Source of the DNA: Acetoanaerobium noterae | GTDB taxonomy: Bacteria; Bacillota; Clostridia; Peptostreptococcales; Filifactoraceae | Direction: 5' to 3' | Assembly: GCF_900168025.1 (NCBI RefSeq) | Contig: NZ_FUYN01000006.1 | Coordinates: 124,001 to 188,000 of the forward strand | DNA length: 64,000 nt | Shown: piece by piece, positions 7,366 to 46,344 of the stretch | How positions within the stretch are numbered: the first letter of the stretch is position 1 | Layout of the letters: the number at the start of each line of letters is the position of its first letter | Made by a program: the position numbers and the translations under genes | Notes under the pieces: generated by a model | Told to the model about the DNA's origin: nothing | Database searches by the model: none | Seen by the model: the letters and a program-made list of their open reading frames with translations, nothing else

Positions 7366-7743
7366 TTATATCCTCTCTATCCCATCTAAATCAAAATATA
7401 CGTTTCTTATTCTAAAAGGAGAAGGGTTTGAATATTGTAATTTTAATTTTTCAAAATCACTAATTCTCTTTGAGTGATAATATGGCTTATCGAATTGTAA
7501 TTTTTCATTTCTAATCCAAATTGGGACTTTAATATTATGCATCTGTAAGTAGTAATCTATTAATGCTGATATCTTGGTTAAATATATTATTTCCTCTTCA
7601 CTGCATAAATCTATGTCAACTGGATTTATTAAACTGTCTATAAACTTCATATCCTTGTATTTCAACATTTCTAATAGTTGATTTAAACTAGTATCTTCAT
7701 CAGGATAATTAAATAGCGTTTGTAAATACTTATTTCCAATCAT
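7366..7743 (-). CDS. Unknown 125-residue partner of the nucleotidyltransferase
   Basis: I do not recognise a named family. The protein is soluble, with no signal or membrane segment. It starts MIGNKYLQTLFNYPDEDTSL, is mostly helical in its first 90 residues, and ends with a basic and aromatic segment (KPYYHSKRISDFEKL then PFRIRNVYFDLDG). It overlaps the end of the upstream nucleotidyltransferase gene by 14 bases, so the two are translationally coupled and almost certainly act together. The layout resembles two-gene toxin-antitoxin or abortive-infection pairs in which one partner is a minimal nucleotidyltransferase, but the role of this protein is unproven. Confidence 0.6.
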   Translation of the reverse strand: MIGNKYLQTLFNYPDEDTSLNQLLEMLKYKDMKFIDSLINPVDIDLCSEEEIIYLTKISALIDYYLQMHNIKVPIWIRNEKLQFDKPYYHSKRISDFEKLKLQYSNPSPFRIRNVYFDLDGIERI

Positions 7744-8296
7744 AGCCTAAATCCTCTCCCAAGTATTTAATAAAGGTTACTTGTCTTGGTCCTATAAGAG
7801 TCAAAGGTATATATTCTGAGCATATTTCGAGCAGTTTATCCTTAGTGGTAATGTTTAATTCTTTACATAATATATAGGCATCTATAAAATCCTTAGCAGG
7901 CTCTGGTCTTGCCGCTAATATTTTCATAGCTAACAGTTGCTTAGCTTTAGGTTTTAATATCTTTAAATTTGAATATATCTTATAGGTTTCTATATCCCCT
8001 TTTATAATTGATTTTAGTGGTTCTTTAATTTCTTCATTTATCCATCCATCCGAAAGATTAAATGCAAACTTAGTAAGATCTAATATACTGTCTAATAATT
8101 TTAAATTGGTTTCAGCAAATATACAATCTATATCTTTAGTTGCTGGTCTATTATCATAAACCATGGTCATAACAGAGTCACCATAAATTGTTATCTCTAG
8201 TTGTAGTTGATTTTCTTTTAATCGTTTATTTAGATAATCAAATATTTCTAAGAGTTTATTCTTATCCATCAAACCAAAGTCACTAAATAGGTCCAT
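7730..8296 (-). CDS. Nucleotidyltransferase-fold protein (DUF6036-like)
   Basis: 188 residues with the pol-beta-type nucleotidyltransferase core EITIYGDSVMTMV then NRPATKDIDCIF: an hG-x-S element followed by the D-x-D metal pair (DID). In related antitoxin/abortive-infection proteins the element is usually GGS or GGA; here the second Gly is Asp, so activity may be altered. The tail is helical (KPKAKQLLAMKILAARPEPAKDFID). The ATG uses a GGAG that lies inside a copied Fic fragment (8298-8389), so the present expression signals come from a rearrangement. It is overlapped by the 125-residue gene. A toxin or modifier role is inferred. Confidence 0.65.
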   Translation of the reverse strand: MDLFSDFGLMDKNKLLEIFDYLNKRLKENQLQLEITIYGDSVMTMVYDNRPATKDIDCIFAETNLKLLDSILDLTKFAFNLSDGWINEEIKEPLKSIIKGDIETYKIYSNLKILKPKAKQLLAMKILAARPEPAKDFIDAYILCKELNITTKDKLLEICSEYIPLTLIGPRQVTFIKYLGEDLGYDWK

Positions 8297-8297
8297 G

Positions 8298-8389
8298 TCT
8301 TTATCTCCAATAATTTCTAATAGCTTTTCAACTTGTTCGGTAACTTGTTCTCATACTTGTTCGGTATCTACAATTTCACATAAAGCATC
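8298..8389 (-). repeat. Fic-gene fragment, copy B
   Basis: Matches 849-940 of the Fic remnant at 89 of 92 positions with no gap. One change makes an in-frame TGA in the repeated EQV segment, so it is not coding. It joins the nucleotidyltransferase start on one side and the copied promoter segment 8389-8499 on the other, sharing the bases CAT at that junction. Confidence 0.85.
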
Positions 8390-8499
8390 ATAAGCTTATC
8401 TCCTTTTATCCAAAAGAACATTATAATTGCTATGAACACTTCTTGCCTGTATATGGATATTATTCATTTAGATAATTATATTATAACCACAAAAAATTA
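8389..8499 (-). repeat. Copied promoter/RBS region, copy 1
   Basis: About 110 bases matching 10504-10614, which is the upstream region of the GNAT gene, with a constant offset of 2115. It carries the same start-codon and ribosome-binding-site context, but the GNAT coding sequence is missing and a Fic fragment takes its place. Its far end cuts into the AraC gene. Confidence 0.85.
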
Positions 8500-9186: not shown

Positions 9187-9594
9187 ATGAAATGTGTTAT
9201 GATTGTCAACGAAAATTTACCACGAGGCATTATTGCTAATACAACCGCAGCCTTAGGCATAAGTATTGCGTCCCTACAAGATGGTATGACTGGAAAAAAA
9301 CTTGTGGATAGAAATGGTAGAATTCATGAAAGCATCACGAATGTACCTATTCCTATTCTCGCCTTGCCTGTTAATGACGTGAAAGTCTTATATGATAATC
9401 TCTTAGAGCTAAATGACGAAGACTTAAAAGTTATCGGCTTTAACGATGTTGCCCAAAATTCACATCATTATGAAGAATACGAAGCACGGCTACTACAGAC
9501 AGCTAAGGATAATATCAATTATCTGGGCATATGTAGATATGGACCAAAGAAAAAAATTAATAGGCTGACAGGCAGTATGAAAATGCTGAGATAA
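9187..9594 (+). CDS. DUF2000-family protein
   Basis: 135 residues matching the DUF2000 pattern: MKCVMIVNENLPRGIIANT, LGISIASLQDGMTG, HESITNVPIPIL and the C-terminal YGPKKKINRLTGSMKMLR. The family has a peptidyl-tRNA-hydrolase-like fold and is often encoded beside AraC regulators; its activity is unknown. AGGATG precedes the ATG. It appears intact and was presumably controlled by the now truncated AraC gene upstream. It converges on, and seems to have cut off, an AbiEi-type antitoxin fragment that enters from the right. Confidence 0.8.
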   Translation: MKCVMIVNENLPRGIIANTTAALGISIASLQDGMTGKKLVDRNGRIHESITNVPIPILALPVNDVKVLYDNLLELNDEDLKVIGFNDVAQNSHHYEEYEARLLQTAKDNINYLGICRYGPKKKINRLTGSMKMLR

Positions 9595-9799
9595 ACAGGT
9601 GGCAAAAGAATCGATATAGCTTAATATCACTAATCTCTTCAGTCGCTAATTTATAGTATCCCTTTGTTACTCTTTCCAAAACATTACTTTTTATCAACTT
9701 GCTCAGCTCATACTTAGTCATGCTATTTTTATAGAGTTCCTCGGTTTTCATAATATCATTCTGATTTTTAAATATACTTTTTATGTTATCTATCTCCAT
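9557..9799 (-). pseudogene. 5' fragment of an AbiEi-type antitoxin gene
   Basis: The first 55-60 codons read DIMKTEELYKNSMTKYELSKL then NVLERVTKGYYKLATEEISD, the N-terminal winged-helix domain of AbiEi/type IV antitoxins, which binds operator DNA. After about 9615 the frame continues only as the antisense of the DUF2000 gene end (FFCHLFISAFSYCLSAY), so the C-terminal antitoxin domain and any AbiEii toxin gene are gone. A good ribosome-binding site (GAGGTG) and a long inverted repeat lie just upstream. A short DNA-binding peptide could still be made. Confidence 0.7.
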
Positions 9800-9876: not shown

Positions 9877-9948
9877 TAGGTCTGTGCTTTAACACAAGTA
9901 CTTTCATAAGTTCTTTTGTAAAATACTCTTTATCACCAATAATTTCTA
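9877..9948 (-). repeat. Fic-gene fragment, copy C
   Basis: Matches 799-870 of the Fic remnant at roughly 64 of 72 positions with no gap. It is more diverged than copy B and covers a more C-terminal part. It joins the end of the GNAT gene so that the GNAT stop codon lies at the junction. Confidence 0.8.
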
Positions 9949-10506
9949 AAATTTCAACCACATAACACTCACAGTATCATGTCTTTCTATCTCTTTAAAC
10001 CCAAGCTCTTTGTACATATTTACAGTACCTCTATATAGCTTTTCTGGTTCATCACTATCCTCTACTGGAAGCGCTAAGACTGCCTCAAATCCTTGTGATT
10101 TAAAGTCATCTACAGCTTGCTTAAGTAAAAGTCTCGCAACCCCTTGATTTCTATAATCCTGATGAATCACAAAACAAATAACACAGCCTATTTTCTTACC
10201 TTTTATCATATTTTCTATATACTGATGAAGCCTTATGTACTCACTCGCGTTGTTTGCATTACACCATCCAATACATTTCTCTCCATCAAAAGCTAAGTAG
10301 CCTCTCATCTTGCCAGCTTTTATCTGCTCTATTGCCTCAATGCGATTTTCTGCCCCAGTTCTTTTACTCCATTGCTCAGCAGAGCAGTCTGTATGGTAAA
10401 ATCTACAAAAACAACTAGACCAATGAGGCACTCCAAAATCAAGATTTTCGAAATATTCAGTAAATGTTGTTGCTAGCTCTGGACTTAGTGGTTTAATAGT
10501 ATACAT
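9946..10506 (-). CDS. GNAT-family N-acetyltransferase
   Basis: 186 residues from the ATG at 10504-10506, which has a GGAGAT ribosome-binding site; an upstream ATG at 10554 lacks one. The acetyl-CoA motif is HQDYRNQGVARLLLKQAVDDF, with VICFVIHQ as the preceding strand, and the C-terminus ends IERHDTVSVMWLKF. The N-terminal half (VPHWSSCFCRFYHTDCSAEQW) is rich in Cys and Trp, as in a GNAT subgroup often called uncharacterised YobR-like. Substrate unknown. The gene is wedged between a copied promoter region and Fic fragment C, so it looks like a cassette inserted in a rearranged locus. Confidence 0.85.
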   Translation of the reverse strand: MYTIKPLSPELATTFTEYFENLDFGVPHWSSCFCRFYHTDCSAEQWSKRTGAENRIEAIEQIKAGKMRGYLAFDGEKCIGWCNANNASEYIRLHQYIENMIKGKKIGCVICFVIHQDYRNQGVARLLLKQAVDDFKSQGFEAVLALPVEDSDEPEKLYRGTVNMYKELGFKEIERHDTVSVMWLKF

Positions 10507-10614
10507 AAGCTTATCTCCTTTTATCCGAAAGAACATTATAATTGCTATGAACACTTCTTTCCTAAATCTGAATATTATTCATTTAGATAAAAATATTATA
10601 ACCACAGAAAATAT
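10504..10614 (-). repeat. Copied promoter/RBS region, copy 2
   Basis: Upstream region of the GNAT gene, nearly identical to 8389-8499. It includes the ribosome-binding site and a T/A-rich promoter-like stretch. Confidence 0.85.
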
Positions 10615-11056
10615 AAATACACTTATTTTCAAAATAAAAATGCCTTACTCCTGAATCACTTATAAAATATTTTTCATTATTCTATAGACACTACAAAATG
10701 AACAATATCACAAGTCAATACTTCTTCTAACTAAACAAAAAAAGTGGTCACTTATAGTAGAGTTAATCGTACCAATGTATCTATGGTTTTACCATATTTG
10801 AAAAAATCAAAAAGAACCGTCCCTATTGGCTAGTCCCTATTGGCTATTAACAGGATTTTTTAACTTAGCAGCATATGTATAATCAGAATTCCCTATGACA
10901 AGTGCTATCCTAGAATTCATTATTTCTCCTTTTCCTCAATTTATAGTGCAGATGTAAATAATTGGAACATAATTTGTTAAACACTTATATTAATCTTCTA
11001 AACATCTGAATGCTTGTAATCTTTACTAGATAATGATTTAAATAACTATATACTCA
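10615..11056. other. Non-coding stretch around the caspase stub
   Basis: AT-rich, with no complete gene. Apart from the caspase stub it holds a duplicated CCTATTGGCTA and, on the minus strand, GGGACGGTTCTTTTTGA. I associate that sequence with repeat ends near transposases in clostridial genomes, from memory only. Nothing else is supported. Confidence 0.4.
10837..10920 (-). pseudogene. Stub of a caspase-like (peptidase C14) gene
   Basis: From an ATG at 10918-10920 with an AAAGGAG ribosome-binding site, the frame reads MNSRIALVIGNSDY, then AAKLKNPVN, and stops at 10837. This is the first beta-strand and loop (ALVIGN.Y....L.NPVND) of bacterial caspase/metacaspase domains. The stub breaks where a 12-13 base repeat (CCTATTGGCTA, twice at 10831-10847) and the motif GGGACGGTTCTTTTTGA begin on the minus strand. 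The catalytic His and Cys are gone. The call rests on a short but characteristic motif. Confidence 0.6.
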
Positions 11057-12682
11057 TTAAGGAAGTTCTGGAATGTATGGTTTTACTGCATCTATTATCT
11101 GTTCTTTTACACCATTCTTATTATACTTTAGTAGATTAATTACTCTTTTTGGATATTCACTATCTTTTATTCCAAACTTACTACCTATTTTTTTACTTAA
11201 ATCCTTGAAATTAAAGATTCTTAAAATATCATCAAGCTCTGTAGCACTTTCAAAGATTTCTCTTTTATCTTTTAAAATACATTCTATAAATTCAATCGTG
11301 AATTTTTCATCTAGTGCTTTTTTAACACTCTCCGCTACTAAAGTTTTAGAATCAAAATGCATACAACTCAATTGATAATCAACTTCTTTAGTAAATGCTT
11401 CCTTAATCTGTGTCTCTTTTACTCCATTATATAAATCTACAATGAATTTTTTAGCATTATCTACCACATCATCTTCACAACCTAACTGCTTCTGCATTAC
11501 TAGAAGTAACTCGGGAACAAGAAAAAGATTTTCAACCTCTGAAACTTCTAAACAAAATATTCCGTCGTTTTTAAGTTCATCAACCTCATGCTTCATCCTA
11601 TAGTCTCTATCTACAACACCATAAACTTCTATATTATCAAATTTTCCATATCCTTTCTTAGCTTTCACATAGTTTACTACTTGCTTGCATCCACCGCATG
11701 GTATGACATGGTAATTTTTATCTTTATAAATCTCTTGATACAGTAAATAATCTAAACTACTTTTTGTACCTTCTACAAAAACAATCTTTTTCTTAGTTCC
11801 AATTATTTCAAATATTAATTCAGTAGACAAGCTTTCATAGTCTTCAATATTTAAAAACTCATACTCCCACGTATTATCTCCATCAAATGATTTTACCCAT
11901 AAAATTTCATCTGTATTTCTTGAAACTGCAAAATCTAAATCATGAGTAATATACATAAAAACACAATCTTGCCGTATTTCCTCAAGCTTATCCCATAGTT
12001 TATTAAGGATAGCCTTATGTATATGTAACTCCGGCTCATCTATAATCACTAATGTATTATCCTTTACAGTTAGCGCTTGTACTATCATATATAGTATAAC
12101 TCGTTCTCCATCACTCATTTCTTTCCCATGATATCTATTTTTCCATATTGCATGAACTTCATTACCTGATAAATCAATTTTTCTATTTGGTAATAAATAT
12201 GACCATATCTCTTCGACTATATCTATAAGAGTTTTTAGTGGTTCAGGTCTTGTTTTTCCTTGAGATACGCAGAGTTTATCCATTTTGTTCTGGTCTTCTA
12301 ATAGTTTATTGTTCTTAGCAAATAATAGCGATAGGACTTTATCATAATCATTTATCAAAAATGTAGCTGGATTACTACCATACCTATATCCAATTTTACT
12401 CGCATATTCATTGGAATTTCCAATATATGCTTCTCTCGTCGATGCTTCTAATCCCTTTATTATTAACGTATCTGATATAGATAATGATTTTTGTGCAGAT
12501 AATCTCTGTACTAAAAACTGAGAAGGATTGTATGGTCGTTGAAAACTAGTATCATTAAGTTCTTCAATCTTGACACTCAATCTTGTTTTGCCAGCCCCAT
12601 TAGCTCCTAGCAATACTACTGGTTTTCCTTGTTGCAAATTCCTAATCTCACCATTTGGAAATTTTATCATGAGTTCAGCCAT
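11057..12682 (-). CDS. AAA ATPase fused to DUF4435/TOPRIM-like domain (PARIS AriA-AriB-like)
   Basis: 541 residues in two parts. Residues 1-295 are an ABC/SMC-like ATPase: Walker A GANGAGKT (26-33), signature MSDGE (189-193), Walker B LVIIDEPE (211-218) and switch His247 in YITHDLDF. Residues 296-541 begin VFVEGTKSSLDYLL (Glu304) and continue VYGVVDRDY (Asp358, Asp360) and SEVENLF (Glu382, Glu384), the acidic pattern of DUF4435, a TOPRIM-related nuclease domain. In PARIS antiphage systems the same two parts occur as AriA and AriB or as one merged protein: the ATPase senses anti-restriction proteins and frees the nuclease. GGGGGAG precedes the ATG. It is alone, with debris upstream and rlmH downstream. 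Other fused ATPase-DUF4435 proteins exist, so PARIS is a candidate, not a certainty. Confidence 0.72.
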   Translation of the reverse strand: MAELMIKFPNGEIRNLQQGKPVVLLGANGAGKTRLSVKIEELNDTSFQRPYNPSQFLVQRLSAQKSLSISDTLIIKGLEASTREAYIGNSNEYASKIGYRYGSNPATFLINDYDKVLSLLFAKNNKLLEDQNKMDKLCVSQGKTRPEPLKTLIDIVEEIWSYLLPNRKIDLSGNEVHAIWKNRYHGKEMSDGERVILYMIVQALTVKDNTLVIIDEPELHIHKAILNKLWDKLEEIRQDCVFMYITHDLDFAVSRNTDEILWVKSFDGDNTWEYEFLNIEDYESLSTELIFEIIGTKKKIVFVEGTKSSLDYLLYQEIYKDKNYHVIPCGGCKQVVNYVKAKKGYGKFDNIEVYGVVDRDYRMKHEVDELKNDGIFCLEVSEVENLFLVPELLLVMQKQLGCEDDVVDNAKKFIVDLYNGVKETQIKEAFTKEVDYQLSCMHFDSKTLVAESVKKALDEKFTIEFIECILKDKREIFESATELDDILRIFNFKDLSKKIGSKFGIKDSEYPKRVINLLKYNKNGVKEQIIDAVKPYIPELP

Positions 12683-12843
12683 ATATAACTCCCCCTTTAA
12701 ATAATTCTAAAACTTAAATATATCTTAATATAATCAACCTATCTCTAGATAAAAATAAGATAACCCTTATTTATTGCCTTAAGCATATAAATTGGAAACC
12801 AATTATACCAGTTAATATTACTACTCTACATCCAAAACCGCCG

Positions 12844-46268: not shown

Positions 46269-46344
46269 TGGTGACCCATCCGCGACTCGAACGCGGGACA
46301 CCCTGATTAAAAGTCAGGTGCTCTGCCGACTGAGCTAATGGGTC
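46269..46344 (-). tRNA. tRNA-Lys (anticodon TTT)
   Basis: 76 nucleotides with encoded CCA. Acceptor GACCCAT pairs with ATGGGTC and the anticodon loop CTTTTAA gives TTT. It is the first gene of the four-tRNA operon. tRNA-Lys is a reported target of some PARIS nucleases, which is worth remembering beside the gene at 11 kb. Confidence 0.95.

Follow-up and report, generated by a model that had tools for sequence, protein, structure and literature searches.

Within the window, that is, the whole stretch of 64,000 nucleotides of Acetoanaerobium noterae DNA analyzed here, an intact gene for a protein of 541 amino acids probably constitutes a self-contained, single-gene PARIS defence system, in which an ATPase half would act as sensor and clamp for a TOPRIM half that would cut tRNA. 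Its membership in the PARIS family is well supported by both sequence and effector fold, and we infer that the gene serves in defence against phages. Single-gene fusions were already described along with PARIS itself in 2022 (PMC9122126), and no architectural difference was found between the window protein and merged PARIS (AriAB), both consisting of one polypeptide with an ATPase followed by a DUF4435/TOPRIM domain. The gene thus adds a member in the order Peptostreptococcales to this already known merged form of the system. The positions of the gene, its parts and the features around it are collected in the table.

Table. Features of the window discussed in the text, with positions counted from its first nucleotide.
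Feature	Position	Strand	Basis or remark
Merged AriA-AriB (PARIS-type) gene, 541 aa	11057-12682	(-)	ATG start; ORF list, AriAB PDLC02982 409 bits, AF2 pLDDT 89.5
ABC-type ATPase half, about residues 1-282	11837-12682	(-)	P-loop, MSDGE signature, Walker B IIDEPE, His247; AriA heads structure list, tied with PtuA
DUF4435/TOPRIM effector half, residues 283-541	11060-11836	(-)	Glu304, Asp358, Asp360, Glu382, Glu384; Pfam, AriB model, AF2
Ribosome-binding-type sequence AAAGGGGGA upstream of the ATG	12690-12698	(-)	By eye
RlmH-like rRNA methyltransferase gene, 159 aa	12844-13323	(-)	Next gene upstream, 161 bp from the fusion on the same strand
Caspase-like (Peptidase_C14) start, 27-codon stub	10840-10920	(-)	Pfam E 0.024, below cut-off
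AbiEi-like stub of 80 aa, matching the N-terminal third of the family	9557-9799	(-)	PADLOC AbiEi E 3.1e-10, positions 3-69 of 198
Host tRNA-Lys(UUU)	46269-46344	(-)	UAAUCA at positions 36-41; presumed substrate, outside the system

Motifs and family of the fused protein

The original prediction had described a single reading frame with the complete motifs of an ABC/SMC-like ATPase and a DUF4435/TOPRIM half. The 541-codon frame lies exactly where it had been placed, and every residue named is present in its product, from the P-loop LGANGAGKT (K32), MSDGE (189-193), IIDEPE (213-218) and His247 to Glu304, Asp358, Asp360, Glu382 and Glu384. The Pfam family DUF4435 was recovered on residues 300-503 well above its cut-off (E 5.8e-13, 49.6 bits against 27), and the ATPase half fell short of the Pfam cut-offs by little, with 25.8 against 27 bits for AAA_21 and 24.8 against 25 for ABC_tran. 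The wording of Pfam for AAA_21, an AbiEii toxin, was considered and set aside, as the match is 1.2 bits short and a family name does not set function; an ABC transporter or ABC-F protein was likewise discarded, the best NCBIfam score being 29.5 against a cut-off of 380.

The assignment as a counterpart of AriA and AriB joined in one protein was borne out by the PADLOC profiles, where the top match was a model of merged PARIS, and not some other ATPase-TOPRIM fusion. This AriAB model, PDLC02982, spans residues 9-539 with 409 bits (E 7.8e-123), followed by a second AriAB model (50.8 bits), AriB (46.1 bits) and GajA, whose models reach at most 24 bits. The AriB model matches the C-terminal half at 1.6e-12, and the AriAB model was also matched by all the fusions scanned (14 of 14, the window protein included). 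A further profile, PHROG 25246, annotated as 'ABC transporter', covers residues 13-523 with 347 bits, which indicates that phage-borne copies exist.

An alignment of 24 fusions, made of the window protein and 23 others, and omitting two truncated proteins (L045, L065) and a split one (L034), revealed the same residues as the core of the family. S190, D191, E193, E216, T246 and H247 are invariant in the ATPase half, as are E304, G305, S309, D311, D358, D360 and E384 in the TOPRIM half, whereas D215 is kept in 23 of the 24 proteins (it is E in L029). K32 and the other P-loop residues are present in all 23 rows that reach them. E382 and N385 occur in 22 of the 24, the two exceptions at both positions being L031 and L032, where E382 is replaced by S. 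The TOPRIM catalytic acids are therefore conserved, and not lost, across the alignment (22-24 of 24). Position 340 is occupied by K in 20 of the 24 fusions and by R in two; it could not be aligned to the AriB of E. coli, and no role in gripping tRNA is claimed for it. The two proteins that differ at E382 belong to a divergent form of the fusion (24% identity), encoded on plasmids of 5-6 kb from Salmonella and E. coli (L031, 2879-4558; L032, 144-1823), the first of which also carries a gene annotated as a ToxN/AbiQ-type toxin.

Comparison with solved structures and other ATPase-TOPRIM proteins

Single-chain AlphaFold2 models were obtained for the whole protein (13 alignment rows, pLDDT 89.5, pTM 0.81) and for the C-terminal half alone (12 rows, pLDDT 93.4, pTM 0.87). 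Structural alignment of the latter with VIA-align placed two chains of solved PARIS complexes at the top of the list, 8ux9_A (306 residues; Z 11.5, 210 aligned, rmsd 7.0) and 8v46_D (305 residues; Z 9.7, 211 aligned, rmsd 7.9), which we take to be AriB from their length, followed by the C-terminal regions of OLD nucleases with Z of at most 7.5. According to these models, the fold of the effector half is nearest to that of AriB among solved structures. For the whole model, the same program ranked AriA (8ux9_C) first, with Z 13.3, 242 aligned residues and rmsd 4.3, and chains of retron PtuA lay within one Z unit. The predicted likeness to AriA and AriB thus held for the TOPRIM half, and the ATPase half is as close to PtuA as to AriA, so that two-gene PARIS of E. 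coli offers the closest solved fold for the effector half and a joint-closest one for the ATPase half.

By sequence, the resemblance to solved chains is fainter. The ATPase half finds AriA in the PDB with E 0.092 as a single query and 8.2e-5 as a profile, and is outscored there by the ATPase of retron Ec83 (5.4e-8 by profile), and a profile of the C-terminal half retrieved no chain among the PDB sequences. The AriB of a two-gene PARIS on a Paraburkholderia plasmid (L027) did not find any solved AriB by sequence either. The ATPase and TOPRIM catalytic residues are present in the window protein as in two-gene PARIS, but its ATPase half is much smaller, about 290 amino acids against the 464 of solved AriA. 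The difference lies between P-loop and signature, a stretch about 170 residues shorter here, with 158 residues from the P-loop lysine to the signature serine as compared to around 330 in the alignment with solved AriA. Such a reduction suggests that the assembly probably differs too.

These comparisons bear on an alternative that we regard as unlikely, though worth weighing, in which the protein would be an ATPase-TOPRIM DNA nuclease like class 1 OLD or GajA, nicking or degrading DNA instead of cutting tRNA, and would resemble PARIS only in domain order. Both Gabija GajA and class 1 OLD share the ATPase-TOPRIM order, and OLD, GajA and retron PtuA also surface in the profile and Foldseek searches. 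The OLD nuclease 6p74 heads the Foldseek lists of both models, being first for the whole protein, with AriA absent from the best 50 matches listed, and first for the C-terminal half, where nothing was significant (best E 0.058). The tie of the ATPase half with PtuA is also compatible with a DNA nuclease, and a review, in the part that deals with these proteins, calls a separate OLD class for single-gene AriAB fusions unclear (PMC10568477). On the other hand, the score with merged PARIS exceeds that with the best GajA model by far (409 against 24 bits), and the C-terminal half is nearer to the AriB-sized chains than to the OLD C-terminal regions in the VIA-align comparison. Moreover, the window gene, unlike Gabija, has no GajB-type helicase as a neighbour, the adjacent genes coding for the RlmH-like protein and, downstream, for a GNAT-like protein of 202 amino acids.

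A different non-PARIS identity, that of a generic ATPase-TOPRIM system in a single gene, such as IbfA/HEC-04, appears highly improbable. The ibfA gene is carried by large IncI1 plasmids, whereas all 21 plasmid records from Escherichia and Salmonella with a match to the window protein are 5.3-10.9 kb in size. In addition, no HEC-04 model was among the 22 PADLOC families that matched with E of 1e-5 or below, in a library that may contain none. What speaks for such an identity is that IbfA is also an anti-phage protein with the ATPase and TOPRIM parts in a single gene, of similar size (1557 bp), according to the portions of its description consulted (PMC12111858), from which, rather than from its sequence, the comparison with the window protein was made. 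A merged PARIS accordingly stays the preferred identity of the gene.

Distribution and genomic surroundings

Four near full-length relatives with 53-59% identity were detected in Clostridium rhizosphaerae (L002), Halobacillus dabanensis (L003), a Clostridia MAG (L004) and Peptacetobacter hominis (L005), the last in the same order as the window genome; a further genome (G903) holds the same sequence as L005, as judged from a stretch of 200 bases. The distribution of the fusion is patchy. Matches occurred in seven of 391 genomes of the class sample and in six of 393 of the order sample, the own genome being counted in each, and only in the own genome among the 398 of the phylum sample, where three candidates were scored per genome. 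Within the own family two of 11 genomes matched, one being the own genome and the other giving an 81-residue match to the ATPase only (E 1.5e-4). In two other orders the only match was the centre genome itself (one of 22 and one of 31), and the order of G396 yielded five of 249 genomes, centre included. Plasmid records gave 53 matches, 43 of them extending over 80% or more of the query, and all with less than 60% identity. In phages, the only relative came from one Oenococcus phage, present under two accessions and covering 69% of the query, and one scan of viral contigs found 130 stretches fitting two short peptide patterns, with no relative confirmed among them.

The gene had also been placed in a defence hot spot, beside remnants of Fic, AbiEi and caspase-type genes, which is partly borne out. 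The AbiEi stub is clear with PADLOC, although under the cut-off of Pfam AbiEi_4 (18.5 against 25), and the caspase-like stub is weak. As for Fic, the sequence HxFx(D/E/N)GN(G/K)R, which we take to be its motif, is absent from the window, and the Fic-type tails were recognised by visual inspection alone, so that this remnant is unconfirmed. The patch around the fusion looks worn and defence-related, the AbiEi match alone being firm, and hints weakly at a hot spot. On the other flank, the gene that we presume to be RlmH has a match in 10 of the 11 genomes of the family. We also considered, and rejected, that an SCC-like element had inserted at the rlmH 3' end, as a search of the window for a second copy of this end found only the gene itself. 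The flanks of rlmH differ between the own genome and a genus mate (G001), so that comparing them did not reveal an empty site.

Several other features lie in this region. A direct repeat of 109 nt (92% identical) occupies positions 8389-8497 and 10504-10612, and a second short repeat lies nearby at 8298-8320 and 9927-9949; together they suggest that a unit around the GNAT/AbiEi stretch was duplicated or rearranged. At 7366-8296, a gene resembling nucleotidyltransferases, which narrowly misses the Pfam cut-off for DUF6036 and matches PADLOC AbiEii weakly, overlaps a gene of 125 amino acids with no Pfam or PADLOC match, and the two are possibly an unusual toxin-antitoxin pair.

In such a setting the fusion itself might be a relic, out of use in a decaying defence patch, as the two stub-like neighbours on one side (AbiEi and caspase-like) would suggest. 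This is nevertheless very unlikely for a full-length reading frame that is preceded by a ribosome-binding-type sequence, keeps all the catalytic residues and is 57-59% identical, almost from end to end, to relatives from other genera.

The settings of the relatives are diverse. The fusion lies beside TnsD/TniQ in L041, where a Mu-type transposase occurs at a greater distance. It stands side by side with a two-gene PARIS on the Paraburkholderia plasmid (L027, 5390-9665), shares a stretch with GajB and adjoins a PDC-S06/PrrC-like gene in L046, and is found near a Dsr1-like gene in L063 and next to a Fic-domain gene in P. hominis. Besides the fusion, five genes are annotated on a plasmid of 5.8 kb (L025), namely a replication gene and genes for a relaxase, an antitoxin of RelB type, a toxin of RelE type and a hypothetical protein, and in several other loci (such as L029, L040 and L047) no recognised defence gene was found nearby. 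On a Campylobacter plasmid (L030, 7357-9150) the fusion is followed by a large gene annotated as an AAA ATPase, with no PADLOC match at E 1e-5.

Relatives in restriction-modification operons and a possible mode of action

Some of the relatives lie inside, or directly behind the genes of, restriction-modification (R-M) systems of three types. The fusion of the Clostridia MAG sits between hsdS and hsdR of a type I system, with gaps of 2 and 25 nt and all genes on one strand, when its start is set as the one aligned with the window protein and not as that of the longest frame. In L043 it lies between Mod and Res of a type III system (gaps of 27 and 14 nt, one strand), with SIR2 and HerA following, and in L042 it comes after a C5 methyltransferase and an HpaII endonuclease (gap of 21 nt, one strand). 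An intact fusion adjoins an HpaII fragment of 142 amino acids in L062, and in H. dabanensis a type III pair occupies the third and fourth gene positions from the fusion, on the opposite strand. Two close fusions can thus be observed behind an intact HpaII pair (L042, 6912-10689) and behind an HpaII fragment corresponding to positions 153-296 of 359 (L062, 8316-10588), and it seems that the fusion was kept after the endonuclease decayed in this lineage.

Altogether, an R-M gene was found within four genes of the fusion in five of 26 loci, and directly adjacent in four of them, one being the HpaII fragment, as detected with 12 R-M queries that came from three of these same loci and the own genome; the count is thereby biased towards those systems, and R-M genes of other types may have gone undetected. 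Among the 26 loci are that of the window, groups of close relatives (L031/L032; L042/L044/L062/L063), fusions that are truncated, and contig ends. R-M genes account for 9 of the 168 ORFs at a distance of one to four genes, and none of the 127 further out (two-sided Fisher p 0.012), in an internal comparison that was made after the pattern was noticed and that carries no defence-gene baseline. GajA was tried as such a baseline, but only two of 391 genomes match it at E 1e-25, too few for a control on defence-island clustering. On the tree of the 24 fusions, the R-M label needs five changes, at least four of them forced by supported branches, indicating that the R-M linkage is not one inheritance; its clustering is no greater than that of shuffled labels.

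The same 12 queries detected no R-M gene near the window copy. The own genome does contain two type I hsdM-hsdS-hsdR operons on another contig, with HsdS identified by eye. Upstream of a type I operon of this genome (L053, 9088-11165), there is an AbiLi/AbiLii-like pair of ATPase genes; two more genes of this locus look SIR2-like by eye, and the one that was tested had no PADLOC match.

The operons suggest a backup role for the fusions embedded in them. A guard of the linked R-M enzyme was also considered, and a backup is preferred because E. coli PARIS is active in cells without EcoKI, the guarding of EcoKI having been ruled out by its discoverers in the sections of their report that address it (PMC9122126), and because PARIS within a BREX island of Salmonella shows no response to Ocr or an Ocr homologue, in the part of the study concerned with that island (PMC11341690). 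Unless the linked enzyme proves to be needed, the R-M-embedded fusions are probably better read as backups that would sense phage proteins. Similar arrangements are in print, such as PARIS embedded in BREX (PMC11341690) and OLD-ABC/TOPRIM pairs as BREX backups, where earlier reports in R-M-like systems are mentioned (PMC12839542, as far as its excerpted text goes). No report of fused PARIS inside type I, II or III R-M operons was found in the literature searched, which did not take in the structure papers in Nature or a previous survey of ABC ATPases, and no priority is claimed.

The two-gene system provides the frame for a possible mode of action. In it, a hexamer of AriA holds three AriB (6:3), and AriB dimerises once it has been released by a trigger from the phage, for example Ocr (PMC12409363, PMC12707154, both as far as consulted; PMC11455837). 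In E. coli, the target of the freed AriB is tRNA-Lys(UUU), which it cleaves within U36AAUCA41, at the bond joining nucleotides 40 and 41 (PMC12409363). In the window protein, the N-terminal ABC ATPase half would act as both sensor and clamp, keeping the C-terminal DUF4435/TOPRIM nuclease half off until a phage product binds the ATPase half; the most plausible candidate for this product is an acidic anti-restriction protein. The complex would then rearrange so that two TOPRIM halves could pair and cut a host tRNA, with tRNA-Lys(UUU) as the first candidate, halting translation and then the phage. Trigger class, tRNA target and growth arrest are those that we infer from the published PARIS work. 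The U36AAUCA41 stretch of the host tRNA-Lys is weakly consistent with this target, as it is possibly common in bacteria. As to the trigger, the lack of response to Ocr of the Salmonella BREX PARIS, which also had no activity against the phages tested (PMC11341690), means that the trigger class cannot be assumed for every PARIS.

Some steps would nevertheless have to differ from those of the two-gene system, because the effector is covalently tethered here. The fusion fixes a 1:1 ratio of the two halves, so that the reported complex of six AriA and three AriB could not be reproduced, and the effector could not be released as a free subunit, which points to activation in place or by proteolysis. 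A broader proposal, and a tentative one that we would rather doubt than endorse, is that fused PARIS makes up a distinct branch in which a tethered, never-released TOPRIM tRNase would pair within a 1:1 assembly, and which would have been recruited repeatedly and independently into type I, II and III R-M operons as a backup against anti-restriction proteins or inhibition of the linked enzyme.

Merged PARIS has been catalogued, but no mechanism for it was found in the literature read. As a compact fusion of 541 amino acids, the window protein allows the question of how a tethered effector is switched on to be asked directly, and its R-M-embedded relatives are natural gene sets in which the cooperation between PARIS and restriction may be approached.
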